The notes under the pieces are model-generated. The model was not told the origin of the DNA, did not search any database, and saw nothing but the letters and a program-made list of their open reading frames with translations. Both the position numbers and the translations under genes were made by a program. From the NCBI GenBank assembly GCA_938002655.1, contig CALLAC010000001.1:62001-126000 (forward strand): a stretch of DNA of 64,000 nt, given 5' to 3'. The DNA is from an uncultured Cytophagales bacterium. GTDB taxonomy: Bacteria; Bacteroidota; Bacteroidia; Cytophagales; Thermonemataceae. Positions 20,226-62,488 of this stretch are shown here, piece after piece (within the stretch, counting starts at the first letter, position 1; each line of letters opens with the position of its first letter).

Positions 20226-22334
20226 TTGTTTAAAGCGATTTACATAGCGAGTATTTTTTTGCTTTTGGGGCTTACGAGTTGCTGGAAAGAAAAACAGCAT
20301 TTTGTTGCCGAAAGAGGCATTTTAGACCTTTCCAAAGAGGAAAAAATAGAACTATTACGCCTGAAAGGAGAGTTTTTTTTTGCTTGGCAGAAAGAGCTTT
20401 CCCCCAAAGAAATACTGCAAAGCCAAACTTTTTTGCCTCTTCCTGCCGAGTGGAACAAAAAAGGCTATCCGCCGCAGGGCTTTGCCACTTATGGCCTACT
20501 TATCAAATTGCCACAGAAAAGTAAAGATTTGGGCTTGGAACTACCCAATGTAGCCACAGCATACCGCTTGTGGTTCAATGATTCACTTTTTACAAGTATG
20601 GGCAATTTTGCTACTTCGGCAGATAGTTCGGTGGCTTCTTATCAAAAGAACATTATCAAAATCCCTAATCATTTTCTTACAAACGATATTTTGCAAATTA
20701 CTATTCAAATCAGCAATTATGAGCATTTTCGTGGGGGTATTTATTTCCCTATGTATTTGGGAGCTTGGAATCAGATATACCAAAAAAATCAAAAAATACG
20801 CGATTTTGAGCTTTTCATAATTGGAGCTTTGATATTTATGGCGGTATTTCATAGTATTTTGTATTTTTTCCTTTCTCGCCGCCAAAGAAATCACGATTCG
20901 CTGTATTTGGTTATAATATGCTTGCTAGTAGTTTTAAGAACTTCTTTGTTGAGTGTGGGTTCGCAATATTGGCGTGAAATTTTCCCCCATAGCAGTTTTG
21001 AAGTGATGATGAGAACCGAATTTTTTTCGGTTTATGCTCTACCGCTTGCTATTTTGCTTTTTCTTGATGCTCTTTTGCCTGGTGTTTTGAGTCGAAAAGC
21101 CTTTCGGATCGCAGTGATTATGGCTGTTGGAATGCTTTTACTGGCTTTTTTGCCTATTCCTACGTACCTGCATACCATTCCTATCTATTATTTGGTGATT
21201 TATGCTTTGTATATTTTAGAAATTTATGCCTGCGTAAAAGCCAAACGCAAAGGAGTAAAAGAGGCATACTTGATTCTACTTGCCTTTCTTATGCCTCTGA
21301 TTTTTAGTTTTTTGGAAACATTGCATCATCAGGGCATCATTTTATTCAATTATGCCAATATTACTTTGTTAGGAATGATTTTGTTTTTGTTTTTTCAATC
21401 TTTTGTAATCTCTTATCGCATTGCTCGTGCCTATGCTCGTGTGGCTTATCTAAGCAAGAATTTGGAAAGAGAAGTTCTGAAAAGAACTCGTGAATTAGAG
21501 GAACAGAAAGAAGAGCTTACCCAGAGTAATATAGCACTAGAAAATGCTAAAAATGAAATTGAACGCACAAGAGAAAATATTTTATCGAGTATTCGCTATG
21601 CTCAACGGATACAGAATGCGATTTTGCCGAGCGAAAGATATATGAATAAATTTTTGAAAGAGTATTTTGTATTTTATCAGCCTCGTGATGTAGTGAGCGG
21701 AGACTTTTATTGGTTTCAGGGAGATGAGAATTGCTTTTACATTGCTGTTGCCGATTGTACAGGGCACGGCGTACCCGGAGCTATTATGGCTACTATGGCT
21801 AATATTAGTTTGGATTATGCTTTTTTCAGAAAAGAATACAAAGATTTGGGCGAATTACTTACTATTTTTGATAGAGGGCTTGTTAAGCTGCTTCACAAAA
21901 ACGTTCAGGCTGATGAAGAGCCTACCCAAGATGGTCTGGTAATTACTATTTGTAAAATCAATACTACTACGCTCGAAATGCAATATGCTTCGGCAAGTAC
22001 GCCTGTCTATGTCGTAAGAAAGGAAATGCTTATAGAGCTACCTTTTGATAAGCACATCATTGGAGGAAGCAGTAGAGAAACTAAAAACTTCATAGAGCAT
22101 AGCTTTCAGTTGGAAAAAGATGATATGATATATCTGTTTTCTGATGGCTATCAAGACCAATTCGGAGGTGAAAAAAAGAAAAAACTGGGCTATCGTAAGT
22201 TCAAAGAATTATTGCAGAAAGCCGCTTTATTGAAAATAAACGAACAAAAAGTTTTCTTGGAAAAAGAATTTAATACATGGAAGGGCAGTTATAGTCAGAT
22301 TGATGACGTGCTGATTGTAGGTATAAAAATATAG
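20226..22334 (+). CDS. Membrane PP2C (SpoIIE-type) phosphatase with 7TMR-DISM sensor
   Basis: 702 residues. A lipoprotein-like signal (SIFLLLGLTSC) leads into an extracytoplasmic sensor of about 170 residues, a 7TMR-DISM seven-helix region about residues 195-400 (FELFIIGALIFMAVFHSILYF onward), a coiled coil about 405-455, and a SpoIIE/PP2C serine phosphatase domain to the end. Catalytic metal motifs are SGDFYWF, VADCTGHGVPGA and DMIYLFSDGYQDQFGG. It should sense a ligand outside and dephosphorylate a Ser/Thr phosphoprotein inside. A SiaB-like kinase and SiaC-like target lie 2 kb downstream on the same strand, making SiaC the best candidate substrate. The start is TTG. Confidence 0.9.
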   Translation: MFKAIYIASIFLLLGLTSCWKEKQHFVAERGILDLSKEEKIELLRLKGEFFFAWQKELSPKEILQSQTFLPLPAEWNKKGYPPQGFATYGLLIKLPQKSKDLGLELPNVATAYRLWFNDSLFTSMGNFATSADSSVASYQKNIIKIPNHFLTNDILQITIQISNYEHFRGGIYFPMYLGAWNQIYQKNQKIRDFELFIIGALIFMAVFHSILYFFLSRRQRNHDSLYLVIICLLVVLRTSLLSVGSQYWREIFPHSSFEVMMRTEFFSVYALPLAILLFLDALLPGVLSRKAFRIAVIMAVGMLLLAFLPIPTYLHTIPIYYLVIYALYILEIYACVKAKRKGVKEAYLILLAFLMPLIFSFLETLHHQGIILFNYANITLLGMILFLFFQSFVISYRIARAYARVAYLSKNLEREVLKRTRELEEQKEELTQSNIALENAKNEIERTRENILSSIRYAQRIQNAILPSERYMNKFLKEYFVFYQPRDVVSGDFYWFQGDENCFYIAVADCTGHGVPGAIMATMANISLDYAFFRKEYKDLGELLTIFDRGLVKLLHKNVQADEEPTQDGLVITICKINTTTLEMQYASASTPVYVVRKEMLIELPFDKHIIGGSSRETKNFIEHSFQLEKDDMIYLFSDGYQDQFGGEKKKKLGYRKFKELLQKAALLKINEQKVFLEKEFNTWKGSYSQIDDVLIVGIKI

Positions 22335-22390
22335 GAAAGTATAACAAAATTTCTCAAAAAGCGTTATTTTGGCAGGCTTTTTCAATTTTT

Positions 22391-22975
22391 ATGGAAAATA
22401 TCACTTACACCGAAGCCGAAAAGCATAAAATATTTAATGAAGAGCTAATCCCACATTTAGCTTCTATGTATAATTTTGCTTTTCGGCTTACACTCAATGA
22501 AGATGACGCCAACGACCTTGTCCAAGATACTTATCTGAAAGCCTTTCGTTTCATAGATTCCTTTGAAAAAGGAACTAATGCCAAGGCTTGGTTGTTTAGA
22601 ATATTGAAAAATAGTTTCATCAACGATTTTCGCCGAAAAAGCAAGCAACCTTCTAAGGTAGACTATCAGGAAGTTGAAACTTACTATAATTCTGAAGAGT
22701 TTGAGCCTGAAATTGAAGCTACTACTGATTTACGCAACGAAACCGTCCAAGAGCTCATAGGCGATGAAGTTGCCAATGCAATCAATTCGCTTGACGTAGA
22801 TTTTAGAATTGCTATCATTCTTTGCGATATAGAAGGGTTTACATACGAAGAAATGGCAAAAATTCTGGACATTCCGATAGGTACAGTACGTTCACGTTTG
22901 CACAGAGCCCGTGGGCTATTGCGAGAAAAACTCACTGGCTATGCCAAAAAGCTTGGTTATTTGCAAAAATCTTGA
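22391..22975 (+). CDS. ECF-type RNA polymerase sigma factor
   Basis: 194 residues. Region 2 is visible as LTLNEDDANDLVQDTYLKAF (core binding) and KAWLFRILKNSFINDFRRKS (-10 recognition); region 4 as LDVDFRIAIILCDIEGFTYE with the helix-turn-helix EEMAKILDIPIGTVRSRLHRAR. The linker is acidic and long (NSEEFEPEIEATTDLRNETV). This is a SigE/RpoE-like ECF factor. It is followed after four bases by a zinc-type anti-sigma gene, the usual pairing, and preceded by the PP2C gene (56 bases). Targets cannot be read from the sequence. Confidence 0.93.
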   Translation: MENITYTEAEKHKIFNEELIPHLASMYNFAFRLTLNEDDANDLVQDTYLKAFRFIDSFEKGTNAKAWLFRILKNSFINDFRRKSKQPSKVDYQEVETYYNSEEFEPEIEATTDLRNETVQELIGDEVANAINSLDVDFRIAIILCDIEGFTYEEMAKILDIPIGTVRSRLHRARGLLREKLTGYAKKLGYLQKS

Positions 22976-22979
22976 AACT

Positions 22980-23252
22980 ATGAATTCGCAAGAAATTATA
23001 CCTAAATCGCAACCTTGTACTTGTTGCTGCATAGAAACGCTTTATACTATTCTTGATAACGAAAACGTTGTAGAAATTACGCCTCAGTTGGTAAATAAAA
23101 TTGAAAAATGCTTGCCTTGCTACGAAGAGCACAATTTGGAAAAATCCATCAAAGAATTATTGCAAAGTCGTTTGCAGAAAATTTCGCCACCCCAAGTACT
23201 TTTAGATACTATCAGAGCTAAAATAGAACTTATCAACAGATTGGTTCAATAG
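22980..23252 (+). CDS. Zinc-binding anti-sigma factor (RsrA-like, cytoplasmic)
   Basis: 90 residues starting MNSQEIIPKSQPCTCCCIET. It contains an early CCC cluster and the later block KIEKCLPCYEEH, a C-x2-C next to a His, as in ZAS-type anti-sigma factors, and a C-terminal block PPQVLLDTIRAKI typical of the RsrA/mycothiol-type family. It has no membrane segment, so it should act in the cytoplasm, binding the ECF factor and perhaps responding to thiol oxidation or zinc loss; the redox role is inference from the cysteines. The start at 22980, four bases after the sigma stop, indicates translational coupling. Confidence 0.82.
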   Translation: MNSQEIIPKSQPCTCCCIETLYTILDNENVVEITPQLVNKIEKCLPCYEEHNLEKSIKELLQSRLQKISPPQVLLDTIRAKIELINRLVQ

Positions 23253-23295
23253 TTGGTTTACTTCATGAAAAAAATTTTTATTTTCGGAGTATTTA

Positions 23296-23330
23296 CTTGC
23301 AAGAGCCTCCTTCCCGAATATACTTGCAAG
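23296..23330. repeat. Pair of TACTTGCAAG palindromic repeats
   Basis: Two copies of the self-complementary CTTGCAAG (23296-23303 and 23323-23330), each preceded by TA, lie in the 188-base gap after the anti-sigma gene. The same core recurs in the hairpin at 31249-31274. They may form a terminator-like structure or belong to a dispersed intergenic repeat family. Confidence 0.5.
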
Positions 23331-23440
23331 GTCTGCTATTTTGGGCAATACTTATTTTGTTGAAAAAAATACTTTTTTCTTGCCTTTTTGCTCTGAAAAG
23401 CATATATTTTCGCACCTAACCTCAAATTCATAAATAATTT

Positions 23441-24283
23441 ATGCTGTACAGCAAAGAGCATATCACAAGAATGTTGTTTTTGGATATTGAAACAGCACGA
23501 GCTACCCAAAGTTTTCAGGAACTTTCTGAAGGAATGCAAAAAATGTGGGAATATAAATCTCAAAATCTTGAGCCCAAAGAGGCTACTGCCGAAGAAAAAT
23601 ATTATGAAAGAGCCGCTATTTATGCAGAATTCGGACGAATTGTCTGTATTAGTTGTGGTTTTATCTATGAAAAAGATAAGCAGTTGTATTTCAAACTAAA
23701 ATCATTTTATGGTGAAAACGAAAAGCAAATTCTTGCAGAATTCAAGGAGTTTTTAGATAAAAAAGCAGGTAAAATTGATAGCTACGGCAATTTGATTGAT
23801 AAAAACGGCAAAAGAATTTTTGATACCAATGGCAATAAATTGAGCAACGAATGGCTTTTTCACTATTTGGTAGCTCATAATGGAAAAGAATTTGATTTTC
23901 CGTATTTATGCCGCAGGTACATGGTCAATCAGATGCTTTTGCCCGAAGCTCTTGAAATACGTGGTAAAAAGCCTTGGGATATTCTGCACCTTATCGATAC
24001 AATGGAATTATGGCGTTTTGGAGATGTAAAAAATTTTACAAGATTAGAACTTCTTTGCCATTTGTTTGAAATACCAACCCCCAAAGACGATATGGACGGC
24101 AGTATGGTAGGAAAAGTATTTTGGGAAGATAAAGATTTGTATAGAATTGCTCGCTACTGCGAAAAAGATGTGGTTGCCACAGCTCAACTTATGCTAAAAT
24201 TTAATTTGATGGATATTTTCCCACAAGAAAATATCGTCTACCCCGAAAGAAATGCTTACATCAACGGAATAATGATACCTTAA
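23441..24283 (+). CDS. PolB-like 3'-5' exonuclease with an unusual DxxG-repeat insertion
   Basis: 280 residues of the predicted DNA polymerase B exonuclease family (PF10108, DEDDy). Catalytic residues are D15 and E17 (FLDIET), D152 (KEFDFPYL) and Y239/D243 (YCEKDV). It lacks polymerase domains and should degrade single-stranded 3' ends. Residues about 111-136 form an insertion of three short repeats, IDSYGNL, IDKNGKRI and FDTNGNKL, before the VAHNGKEFDF motif. The gene is followed after three bases by the SiaB-like kinase gene, so the exonuclease, kinase and SiaC-like protein form one tight operon, an unexpected pairing for a nuclease. Confidence 0.87.
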   Translation: MLYSKEHITRMLFLDIETARATQSFQELSEGMQKMWEYKSQNLEPKEATAEEKYYERAAIYAEFGRIVCISCGFIYEKDKQLYFKLKSFYGENEKQILAEFKEFLDKKAGKIDSYGNLIDKNGKRIFDTNGNKLSNEWLFHYLVAHNGKEFDFPYLCRRYMVNQMLLPEALEIRGKKPWDILHLIDTMELWRFGDVKNFTRLELLCHLFEIPTPKDDMDGSMVGKVFWEDKDLYRIARYCEKDVVATAQLMLKFNLMDIFPQENIVYPERNAYINGIMIP

Positions 24284-24286
24284 ATT

Positions 24287-24820
24287 ATGCCATATTTGCT
24301 TGAAAACTTGTCCGAAGAAATATTATTTTTCTACAAAGGCATTTTTTCGTATCCTGTGATTGTGGAAATAAGCCATCATATTCGTAATGATTTGATGCTT
24401 GAAGATAACTTGCGTGAGAAACTTTTTGCCATTTTTGTAGAGCTTGCTCAAAATGTAAATTCTTATTCTTTACAACGTACCAAAGCCTCTATCATCAATA
24501 AAGAAGTAGGCGTTGGAGCTTTTTATATCATTGAATATAAAAACTGCGTGAAAATTGCTACGCTCAATCAGGTGAATGATGAGCAGATACAAAAATTAAA
24601 CGCCCGCCTGAATAAAATTAATGTCTTGGATAGAAAAGGATTGAGAGCCCTGAAAATGAGCTTTCGCAATGAGGCTATCCAAGATAAGGCAAACAGTGGA
24701 AATGTGGGTTTAGTAGAAGTTGCTCTCAAATCTGCTAATCCAATTTTACTCGAGGCCATTCATTTTCAGAATGCTCAGTATGCACTTATTACTACTCAAA
24801 TTAACAAAAAAACGGATTAA
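24287..24820 (+). CDS. SiaB-family protein kinase (DUF6272)
   Basis: 177 residues. The sequence matches SiaB-type histidine-kinase-fold Ser/Thr kinases: FYKGIFSYPVIVEISHHI near the start, the ATP-binding N-box FAIFVELAQNVNSYS (about 60-75), and a C-terminal VGLVEVALKSANPILLEAI. In Pseudomonas aeruginosa SiaB phosphorylates SiaC on a threonine and SiaA, a PP2C phosphatase, reverses this. Here the SiaC-like gene follows after three bases and a membrane PP2C gene lies upstream, so the same cycle is likely. No signal peptide. Confidence 0.85.
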   Translation: MPYLLENLSEEILFFYKGIFSYPVIVEISHHIRNDLMLEDNLREKLFAIFVELAQNVNSYSLQRTKASIINKEVGVGAFYIIEYKNCVKIATLNQVNDEQIQKLNARLNKINVLDRKGLRALKMSFRNEAIQDKANSGNVGLVEVALKSANPILLEAIHFQNAQYALITTQINKKTD

Positions 24821-24823
24821 ATC

Positions 24824-25219
24824 ATGCAAGATTTGATTATTAAAGGCGAAAAAAAGACTTATTTTACACCTGATGTAAATTTTTCAGCTTCTACGGGAAT
24901 TTGTACTATTGCAGGTGAGTCGTATCAAGAAGAAACTTTCGAGTTTTTTAATAAGCTGACAGCTTGGCTAGAAGAATATATCGTAAAAATACGCAAACCT
25001 ATTGAAATGAATTTCAAACTTACTTATTTTAATACTGCTTCGGCAAGAGCTATTCAGGAAATGGTGATTGTGCTCAAAAAGTATAAAGACCAAGGCGGAA
25101 ATGTGACTATCAACTGGTATTATGTAGATGAAGAAGATAGCACTTACGAAGAAGCCGAAGATATGCAAGCACAAGTAGGCATAAACTTCAATATGATAAA
25201 GATGGAAAGTAATTATTAG
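24824..25219 (+). CDS. SiaC-family regulatory phosphoprotein (DUF1987)
   Basis: 131 residues, full family length. The key segment is FKLTYFNTASARAIQEM, in which T71 aligns with the threonine of SiaC that is phosphorylated by SiaB (T68 in P. aeruginosa). In that system unphosphorylated SiaC binds and activates the diguanylate cyclase SiaD. No GGDEF protein is encoded in this window, so the output partner here is unknown. It is the last gene of the exonuclease-SiaB-SiaC operon, and its stop overlaps the convergent lycopene cyclase stop by four bases. Confidence 0.87.
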   Translation: MQDLIIKGEKKTYFTPDVNFSASTGICTIAGESYQEETFEFFNKLTAWLEEYIVKIRKPIEMNFKLTYFNTASARAIQEMVIVLKKYKDQGGNVTINWYYVDEEDSTYEEAEDMQAQVGINFNMIKMESNY

Positions 25220-61108: not shown

Positions 61109-62488
61109 CTATGGTAAGTATTGTCCGAGTTTTCCGAGAGCTTTATCCAAATCTACTTTAGCAATAAGGGCATCGTACAAGGCGGCAAAATAATTGGTTT
61201 CCGCTTCTTTGTAGGCAGTTTCGGCATTGATGATATCCGAGCTTGAACCTACGCCCTGCCTGTATTTGATTTCGGAAACTCGCAACACTTCTTTGGCAAG
61301 CTCGATATTGCGTTTCTGAGCTTCTAGAGCTGTCAGAGCGTTTTTAAGTGTAATTTGAGCTTGTCGGGTTTGGAAATCAATAGTTTTTTGAAGATTTTGC
61401 TTATCTTGTTGCAGTTTCAAAATTTCAAGGCGTGTTTGTTGGATTTGATATTTTCGTTGCATACCATTGAAAATCGGTACATTCAACTGCAAACCTACGG
61501 TACCATAGCCAAGCCAACGATTGGAGAAATCGCCAACATTCGAAAAATATCTTGCTCCTGTGGCATACCCCATCTGTCCGATAGCTACCAAACTCGGATA
61601 CGCTCCGATTTGTTTGTTTTTGAGATTGAGTTTATTCAAAGTTATAGCGGTTTCAAGAATTTGGTATTCAATTCTGTTCTGATATTCAGCTTTTGCATCG
61701 CTATCATAGATTTGCTCTAACTGATAGTCGCGTATAGAGCCATCCACTTCCAAGGCTTCTTCTACGGGCATGCCCATCTGAAATTTGAGTAGCTCTTTGC
61801 TCAATTCAATCAGGCGGTCTACTTTCATTTTTTCCGCTCTTAGGTTATTGGCAGTAACTTCCAAACGCGTAACTTCAATGTTTTCAGCAAAACCTTGTTG
61901 GTTGAGGGCTTTTACATCTTTAACAAGGCTATCCAGACGAGCAATGTTGGCATCAATGAGTTTGGCACGCTCTTGGGCTACGAGCAAAGAATAATAGGCT
62001 TTGGTAACATTTTCGATAGTAGTCATTTTGTTGGCTTGTGTAGTTTGTTTGGCGAGTTCTTTGTTCTTTTTAGCCGCTTGTAAGCCTACAAAATACGAGC
62101 CATTGAAAATGAGCTGGCTGATAGTAATACCTGCATCACCTTGATAGCGAGGAGCAAAAATACCTCTGACAGGCACAAATTCGGCGTTAGGGTCGGGGGG
62201 CGAGCCTGTCCCCTGTGCCAAAAAGAAAGCAGGCAAGAAAGCTGGTCTGAGTTCGAAATTGTAGAGCAATTGAGCCGAGCCATTGATTTGGGGCAAACCA
62301 ATGCCCAAATATTCTTGATTTTGGGCTTGTGCAATTTGCTCATCAAGTGCAGATTTTTGCATGAGAGCAGTATTTTTGCAGGCATACTCTATACACTGCT
62401 GTAAAGTCATGATTCGCTTTTCTTGGGCAAAAGCACTTTGCCACAAAAGCAGTCCTAAAAATCCAAAGCTCAAAAATAGTCTTTTCAT
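61109..62488 (-). CDS. TolC-family outer-membrane efflux channel
   Basis: 459 residues. Signal peptide (LFLSFGFLGLLLWQSAFA), then two OEP repeats with long helices: LQQCIEYACKNTALMQKSAL, AKAYYSLLVAQERAKLIDAN-like segment (TKAYYSLLVAQERAKLID), and the second-repeat equivalent KYRQGVGSSSDIINAETAYK. It forms the trimeric barrel and periplasmic tunnel of the pump. It lies 18 bases downstream of the tetR gene and 25 upstream of the adaptor, so all four are one operon. Confidence 0.93.
   Translation of the reverse strand: MKRLFLSFGFLGLLLWQSAFAQEKRIMTLQQCIEYACKNTALMQKSALDEQIAQAQNQEYLGIGLPQINGSAQLLYNFELRPAFLPAFFLAQGTGSPPDPNAEFVPVRGIFAPRYQGDAGITISQLIFNGSYFVGLQAAKKNKELAKQTTQANKMTTIENVTKAYYSLLVAQERAKLIDANIARLDSLVKDVKALNQQGFAENIEVTRLEVTANNLRAEKMKVDRLIELSKELLKFQMGMPVEEALEVDGSIRDYQLEQIYDSDAKAEYQNRIEYQILETAITLNKLNLKNKQIGAYPSLVAIGQMGYATGARYFSNVGDFSNRWLGYGTVGLQLNVPIFNGMQRKYQIQQTRLEILKLQQDKQNLQKTIDFQTRQAQITLKNALTALEAQKRNIELAKEVLRVSEIKYRQGVGSSSDIINAETAYKEAETNYFAALYDALIAKVDLDKALGKLGQYLP

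Follow-up and report, generated by a model that had tools for sequence, protein, structure and literature searches.

A putative exonuclease-SiaB-SiaC operon conserved in the family of a Raineya genome without a detected diguanylate cyclase

What does a SiaC-type phosphoprotein act on in a bacterium in which no diguanylate cyclase can be found? The SiaABCD system of Pseudomonas aeruginosa comprises the PP2C phosphatase SiaA, the kinase SiaB, the phosphoprotein SiaC and the diguanylate cyclase SiaD. The question is raised by a stretch of 64,000 nucleotides (hereafter the window; positions 62,001 to 126,000 of contig CALLAC010000001.1) from an uncultured member of the Cytophagales, family Thermonemataceae, whose assembly (GCA_938002655.1, here G000) amounts to 2.64 Mb in 44 contigs and is 97.5% complete. 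Six genes follow one another on its + strand and specify a SpoIIE-type phosphatase, an extracytoplasmic function (ECF) sigma factor, an anti-sigma candidate, a 3'-5' exonuclease, a SiaB-family kinase and a SiaC-family phosphoprotein. A first-pass annotation had named these genes in this order; open reading frame (ORF) calls and Pfam matches agree with it, coordinates included, save for the start of the anti-sigma gene. The genome, which belongs to Raineya and has no detected diguanylate cyclase, encodes several predicted SiaB-SiaC phospho-switches. The one in the window has exonuclease-SiaB-SiaC as its conserved core operon.

The three genes of this core lie at 23441..24283 (exonuclease), 24287..24820 (SiaB) and 24824..25219 (SiaC), all on the + strand and in one reading frame, and are separated by the gaps of three bases that had been noted at first pass. 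SiaC matches PF09345 with 125.2 bits. Its Thr71 (codon 25034..25036, +, counted from the ORF start) is the predicted phosphorylation site and aligns with Thr68 of Pseudomonas SiaC, which is described as the target of both SiaB and SiaA (PMC7647112). The threonine motif is preserved in 49/49 SiaC rows of the family, these being what remains of 52 once one that was too short and two with duplicate labels had been left out. SiaB (PF19788/DUF6272) exceeds the cut-off of the NCBIfam model 'SiaB family protein kinase' (NF038262; 104.1 bits, cut-off 85) and matches 6kko_A (E 2.6e-6); the group of the window SiaC also matches 6kko by sequence. An E-x2-[QE]-N box is preserved in all 40 SiaB proteins of the family, in the window SiaB as E-x2-Q-N. 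The exonuclease matches PF10108 with 58.9 bits (cut-off 24) and has intact acidic motifs, FLDIET, HNGKEFD and YCEKDV, which we take to be of the DEDD type. Motifs 1 and 3 are present in all 12 aligned rows and strict motif 2 in 11 (G056: HNGKEFDIP). The structure model of this protein (mean predicted local distance difference test score, pLDDT, 52.5) was too poor for a fold search. The exonuclease also carries an insertion of about 30 residues (110-142; window 23768-23866) with repeats of the type DxxGNxxD, found in G000, G025 and G097, shorter in G056 and lacking in the family's remaining genera.

The family sample comprises eight genomes of four genera (G000, G025, G097, G056, G083, G070, G041 and G111). 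In all eight, the exonuclease gene immediately precedes SiaB and SiaC, while the full six-gene grouping is restricted to G000 and the two genomes placed in its genus, G025 and G097. On comparison of gene order, a check proposed at first pass, the core therefore stands and the larger grouping does not. In the five more distant genomes the exonuclease (5/5) and SiaB (5/5) are retained beside SiaC, against 1/35 for the seven other flanking positions (-5 to -3 and +1 to +4). Since the core is kept in eight of eight genomes while nearly all surrounding genes changed in five, its adjacency is above chance. In G083, G070 and G041, SiaB and SiaC form a single ORF (329-347 aa) that adjoins the exonuclease gene and, as called, overlaps its end. 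The predicted structure of the fused SiaB-SiaC protein of a relative (L220) has a mean pLDDT of 80.5 and a predicted template modelling (TM) score, pTM, of 0.54, at which the relative orientation of its two parts is unreliable. Against 6kko, the SiaC part gives a TM score of 0.90 and the SiaB part 0.73 (root-mean-square deviation 5.1), and the weaker fold matches include SpoIIAB. The exonuclease-linked SiaC proteins constitute one clade (supports 99/96, and 100/95 in a tree of 63 rows). The nearest named relative of the window SiaC is that of Raineya orbicola SPSPC-11 (L218; 92% identity), together with a Raineya metagenome-assembled genome (L219). R. orbicola is described as a slightly thermophilic hot-spring isolate (PMC5982127).

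Outside the family, an exonuclease match was found in 100 genomes of the order sample. SiaB-SiaC adjoins it at none of the 99 sites examined (G043 was left out), some of which had flanks of just 1.5 kb or ended by a contig edge. In G005 (L168), some 1.5 kb separate the exonuclease from a SiaC gene that has no SiaB at its side; the gene between them was named thioredoxin-like from its sequence alone, and the case was counted as no link. SiaB is located about 4 kb from the exonuclease in G031 (L063). Among 80 of the 119 named loci from the SiaC profile search, the exonuclease occurs only in L218-L221. The conserved unit is exonuclease-SiaB-SiaC.

No GGDEF domain was detected in the whole assembly. 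The absence of a GGDEF gene, noted at first pass, thus holds for the entire genome, and a SiaD-like cyclase, which the first-pass annotation had set against its own proposal, was not found there either. SiaC is present in 95 of the 148 genomes of the order sample, none of which has a GGDEF match; the single match in that sample (1/148) is weak and belongs to a genome without SiaC (G030). The same search detects GGDEF in 180 of the 345 genomes of the phylum sample. SiaC occurs there in 20/345, and 14 of these 20 also have GGDEF, several by one weak match; the six others are G000, G019, G064, G078, G192 and G476. A complete SpoIIE-SiaB-SiaC-GGDEF run is found in G268 and G276, and SiaC and GGDEF do therefore co-occur outside the order. 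A 2005 census lists no diguanylate cyclases for four Bacteroidetes genomes (PMC1183210). Because GGDEF is undetected both in the window genome and in the 95 SiaC genomes of the order sample, the output of SiaC in this organism is very probably not a diguanylate cyclase, in agreement with the other output that had been proposed for it. The switch probably has other targets than in Pseudomonas.

The best candidate client of the window SiaC is the exonuclease, a proposal that we advance tentatively. The exonuclease is tied to SiaBC by their joint occurrence in 8/8 genomes, by the fusion of SiaB and SiaC beside it in three of them and by the single SiaC clade. In the favoured mechanism, itself short of probable, exonuclease, SiaB and SiaC would be carried on one transcript and SiaB would phosphorylate SiaC at Thr71. 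A SiaA-type PP2C phosphatase, perhaps the product of the adjacent gene at 20226-22334, perhaps another of the 16 in the genome, would remove the phosphate. The co-encoded exonuclease would then be acted on either by SiaC in one of its phospho-states or by SiaB and SiaC as a pair. Of the earlier suggestion that the exonuclease is the output, the tie to SiaBC thus stands throughout the family, while the role of client is conceivable but short of probable. The general idea of SiaC acting on its neighbours is already in print, since modulation of adjacent proteins has been suggested as a common role of DUF1987 (SiaC) proteins by the authors of the SiaC-SiaD study (PMC8457831).

Several observations weigh against the exonuclease as client, and adjacency alone proves no regulation. 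Constancy does not by itself make a neighbour a client, because the genes beside other SiaBC paralogues are just as constant. Across the same five genomes, one paralogue is accompanied by a CCG iron-sulfur protein (5/5), another by a 148-aa protein without Pfam family (3/5) and another by SpoIIE upstream (4/5) and an ABC exporter downstream (4/5). Two explanations offer themselves: a separate partner gene for every SiaC paralogue, or SiaBC pairs that are merely set in stable operons. The exonuclease evidently works without the switch outside the family, being unaccompanied in 99/99 genomes. Neither the 56 called ORFs of the window nor the six genes match the SiaD-type stalk described below, and the exonuclease has no recognisable stalk. 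Finally, the glycine box of the window SiaB is changed (SGNVG, against GAGLG in the Pseudomonas protein). The form [ST]GN[VI]G is found in 8/8 exonuclease-linked SiaB proteins of the family and [GT]AG[LI]G in the 32 others, and this change may weaken kinase activity. As a mark of the exonuclease-linked clade, the changed box was rejected: within the family it separates 8/8 from 0/32, yet it occurs in 16 of the 88 SiaB proteins of named loci, 12 of these without exonuclease link. The usual pattern is present in 36/88, and the remainder fit neither simple pattern.

Some of these points are equally those of another reading, in which the exonuclease is a passive operon companion, merely co-expressed, and SiaBC acts on an unlinked, unrecognised partner. 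This appears somewhat unlikely. It would agree with the unaccompanied exonucleases outside the family, with the lack of a SiaC-binding stalk and with the presence of another SiaBC pair beside the housekeeping gene RuvB in close species. It agrees less well with an adjacency that outlived both the near-total rearrangement of the flanks in five genomes and the fusion of SiaB with SiaC.

The window genome has seven SiaC and five SiaB-like DUF6272 genes. In the tree of 63 SiaC rows, eight groups, including the exonuclease-linked one, each correspond to one side of a branch; four rows lacking a marker neighbour, next to the RuvB group and other groups, received their group after the first tree, and one row is ungrouped. 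The gene for the CCG iron-sulfur protein, SiaB and SiaC adjoin one another in 8/8 family genomes (L014:6239-7996:-). At L016:5784-13927:-, a SpoIIE-PAS-HAMP sensor, SiaB, SiaC and a 1066-aa ABC transporter form one run, an order repeated in L254, L291, L292, L293, L295 and L297 and, with one extra gene between SiaC and transporter, in L286 and L287. Tandem SiaB-SiaC-SiaB-SiaC-SiaC arrays occur in Bacteroidales bins, most of them of rumen origin (L228, L235, L236, L238, L239, L241, L244, L247 and L248). A second SiaB-SiaC fusion lineage (L298:3774-4739:-, L299:3762-4730:-, L300:3935-4903:-) adjoins SpoIIE and a stalk gene, followed in L298 by a response regulator gene.

Pseudomonas SiaC binds stalk motifs of SiaD, its Thr68 contacting Ser82 and Gln86 (PMC8457831). 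In other Cytophagales the gene after SiaC specifies a protein of about 160-205 aa with a SiaD-like stalk (typically ITKVSD..Q.KL) and no GGDEF domain. A hydrophobic segment, read from the sequence by eye, follows the stalk, and these proteins are putatively membrane-type. A profile of 11 such stalks ranks Pseudomonas SiaD (7e6g_A) first, with E 4.4e-5 for the chain. It covers both SiaD motifs, ARISDRYQ and IARISDGFQ, with a weak best single stretch (i-Evalue 0.0099), and unrelated nucleoporin coiled coils come next at 0.012.

The stalk search covered a selection of 61 genomes: from the order, 33 with SiaC and 25 without it, and from the phylum, three. At E 1e-6 or better, a threshold chosen after the table was seen, a stalk was found in 18/33 SiaC-positive against 0/25 SiaC-negative genomes (Fisher p 2.4e-6, ignoring kinship; several of the SiaC-negative genomes are small and mutually related). 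Without the profile contributors G020, G009, G006 and G111 the count is 14/29. At the limit of 0.01 the figures are 20/33 and 2/25, the stalk being undetected in thirteen SiaC-positive genomes. The stalk gene lies directly after SiaC in nine of the 18 (G020, G009, G006, G111, G028, G003, G002, G011 and G016), of which G111 belongs to the family of the window genome and eight to other families. SiaC and stalk are fused in G008 in one 324-aa ORF (L327:829-1803:+), the stalk gene follows SiaB in G005, and in the remaining seven there is no SiaC within about 1.5 kb of the stalk.

Stalk-bearing proteins also include, by Pfam, GGDEF (L301), Guanylate_cyc (L332) and HisKA/HATPase (L303, L324) members. 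The stalk precedes a class III nucleotide cyclase in L332:1378-2325:+ (Pfam) and L333:1411-2391:+ (by eye), and a histidine kinase in L303 and L324 (Pfam) and in L325 and L326 (by eye). It is conceivable, although speculative, that SiaC is a general portable phospho-switch adaptor whose partner stalk has been joined to varied outputs: diguanylate cyclases, class III cyclases, histidine kinases and, in GGDEF-free Cytophagales, small membrane-type proteins. Paralogues would then have different clients. That of the window would have taken on the exonuclease, a link that would couple environmental signals to nucleic-acid turnover.

The window genome has one stalk match at E 0.01 (G000:C2:38428-38658), on a separate contig. 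It belongs to a 181-aa ORF (L316:1255-1800:-) without Pfam family, with a hydrophobic segment in place of GGDEF. A Dfp-like flavoprotein gene follows, and in G025 and G097 a gene of similar length occupies this place. The window SiaC could, like its paralogues, converge on this sole stalk protein, which would replace the cyclase. Such convergence, which we judge improbable, would fit the presence of only one stalk match in the genome, the occurrence in the stalk of the SiaD motif with which Thr68 of Pseudomonas SiaC makes contact (PMC8457831), and the stalk genes placed directly after SiaC in nine genomes or fused to it in G008. The paralogy of SiaC points elsewhere. Among the ten stalk-linked or fused SiaC proteins of the order, that of G111 falls within the RuvB-locus paralogue group. 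Those of six other-family genomes (G003, G016, G006, G009, G028 and G020) group with this paralogue (85/75, moderate support) and not with the exonuclease-linked one. Those of G002 and G011 join no clear group, and the G008 fusion is a long branch elsewhere. Within the family, stalk and RuvB-locus paralogue coincide exactly: five genomes have both, and the other three (G083, G041 and G070), which keep exonuclease-SiaBC, show neither. Such a perfect 5:3 agreement over eight genomes has a chance of 1 in 56, with G111 just 81% complete. Because the stalk tracks the RuvB-locus paralogue and is undetected in three genomes that keep the operon, while the exonuclease-linked SiaC is present in all eight, the stalk protein is disfavoured here and is unlikely to be the (sole) partner of the exonuclease-linked SiaC. 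A novel endpoint had been suggested for the switch: a cyclase-free SiaD-type protein does exist on another contig, but it fits another SiaC paralogue better.

Upstream of the core, the gene at 20226..22334 (+) specifies a SiaA-like membrane phosphatase in which Pfam recognises both domains named at first pass, 7TMR-DISM_7TM (residues 195-398) and SpoIIE/PP2C (residues 501-701). The protein scores 192 bits against NF038263 (cut-off 700). It is one of 16 SpoIIE/PP2C genes of the genome, is linked to exonuclease-SiaBC in 3/8 family genomes and is separated from SiaB by three genes. The ECF sigma gene occupies 22391..22975 (+; Pfam Sigma70_r2 and r4_2). The small anti-sigma candidate follows at 22980..23252 (+), ATG 22980 being a more likely start than 22911 by comparison with L050 and L051. 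The nearest named relatives of the pair in NCBIfam are SigH and RsrA, both below cut-off. The anti-sigma candidate reaches 34 bits against the RsrA model (cut-off 62.5), and its longer reading matches no Pfam family; its zinc-type identity, as first proposed, is no more than plausible. The AT-rich gap of 188 bp before the exonuclease (23253..23440, +) is a weak candidate for a separate promoter of exonuclease-SiaB-SiaC. In this region 25 promoter-like sites were counted against 18.6 (sd 4.4) in shuffles, not clearly above chance, and 7 terminator-like sites against 4.6 (sd 2.5).

The sigma/anti-sigma pair had also been proposed as the output; in such a reading, SiaC or SiaB would add a second layer of control to the RsrA-like anti-sigma. 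The pair adjoins SiaBC in three of the eight family genomes, the SiaC fold resembles an anti-sigma factor antagonist (PMC7647112), and SpoIIAB is a weaker fold match of the fused SiaB-SiaC model. SpoIIE lies within 4 kb of one given SiaC in just 4.6% of random layouts; some SiaC among the seven has one of the 16 SpoIIE genes within this distance in 29%. However, the sigma ortholog, present once per genome in 8/8, lies away from SiaBC in five, and nothing within about 1.5 kb of it there matches the window SpoIIE. Each of these five sigma genes is followed by a small gene; those of G056, G083 and G111 match the window anti-sigma, and those of G041 and G070 are similar in size, without a match at 1e-4. 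Together with the affinity to SigH and RsrA, this makes such control very improbable. Linked in just 3/8 genomes, the pair was dropped as main output and probably adjoins the core by coincidence.

It is extremely unlikely that SiaC acts, as in Pseudomonas, on a cyclase that escaped the GGDEF profile through divergence or is absent from an assembly that is 97.5% complete, given that the same search finds GGDEF in the phylum sample, beside SiaC in G268 and G276, yet in none of the 95 SiaC genomes of the order.

In the literature searched, a diguanylate cyclase is the one SiaC output that has been worked out, while a SiaC-rich order shows no GGDEF beside SiaC; outputs other than SiaD were not found in this literature, mostly without subscription papers. 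Testable candidates for SiaC control are the stalk protein, encoded next after SiaC or in fusion with it, and, in the case of the window paralogue, the exonuclease. If this is true, a family named for biofilm cyclic di-GMP control becomes a general signalling module.

Among known systems, the window exonuclease resembles the predicted 3'-5' exonucleases of PF10108 in profile match and acidic motifs, and differs from the others in the order, none of which adjoins SiaB-SiaC in the 99 genomes examined. Bacillus-type partner switches (RsbU/RsbW/RsbV and SpoIIE/SpoIIAB/SpoIIAA) are defined by their output, a sigma factor to which the kinase binds. The window shares their logic of phosphatase, GHKL kinase and small phosphoprotein, with SpoIIAB as a weaker fold match, but its sigma factor has an anti-sigma candidate of its own and is unlinked to SiaBC in five of eight relatives. 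The closest parallel in gene content is P. aeruginosa SiaABCD. Both have a PP2C phosphatase, in the window a doubtful member of the operon, a SiaB-family kinase and a SiaC with matching threonine; the window SiaC group and SiaB match 6kko, and the L220 fusion shares the fold. In contrast to SiaABCD, the window SiaA, SiaB and SiaC fall below the NCBIfam equivalog cut-offs, and the genome has no SiaD or GGDEF but several SiaC paralogues, with SiaB and SiaC fused in three relatives and an exonuclease within the SiaBC group.

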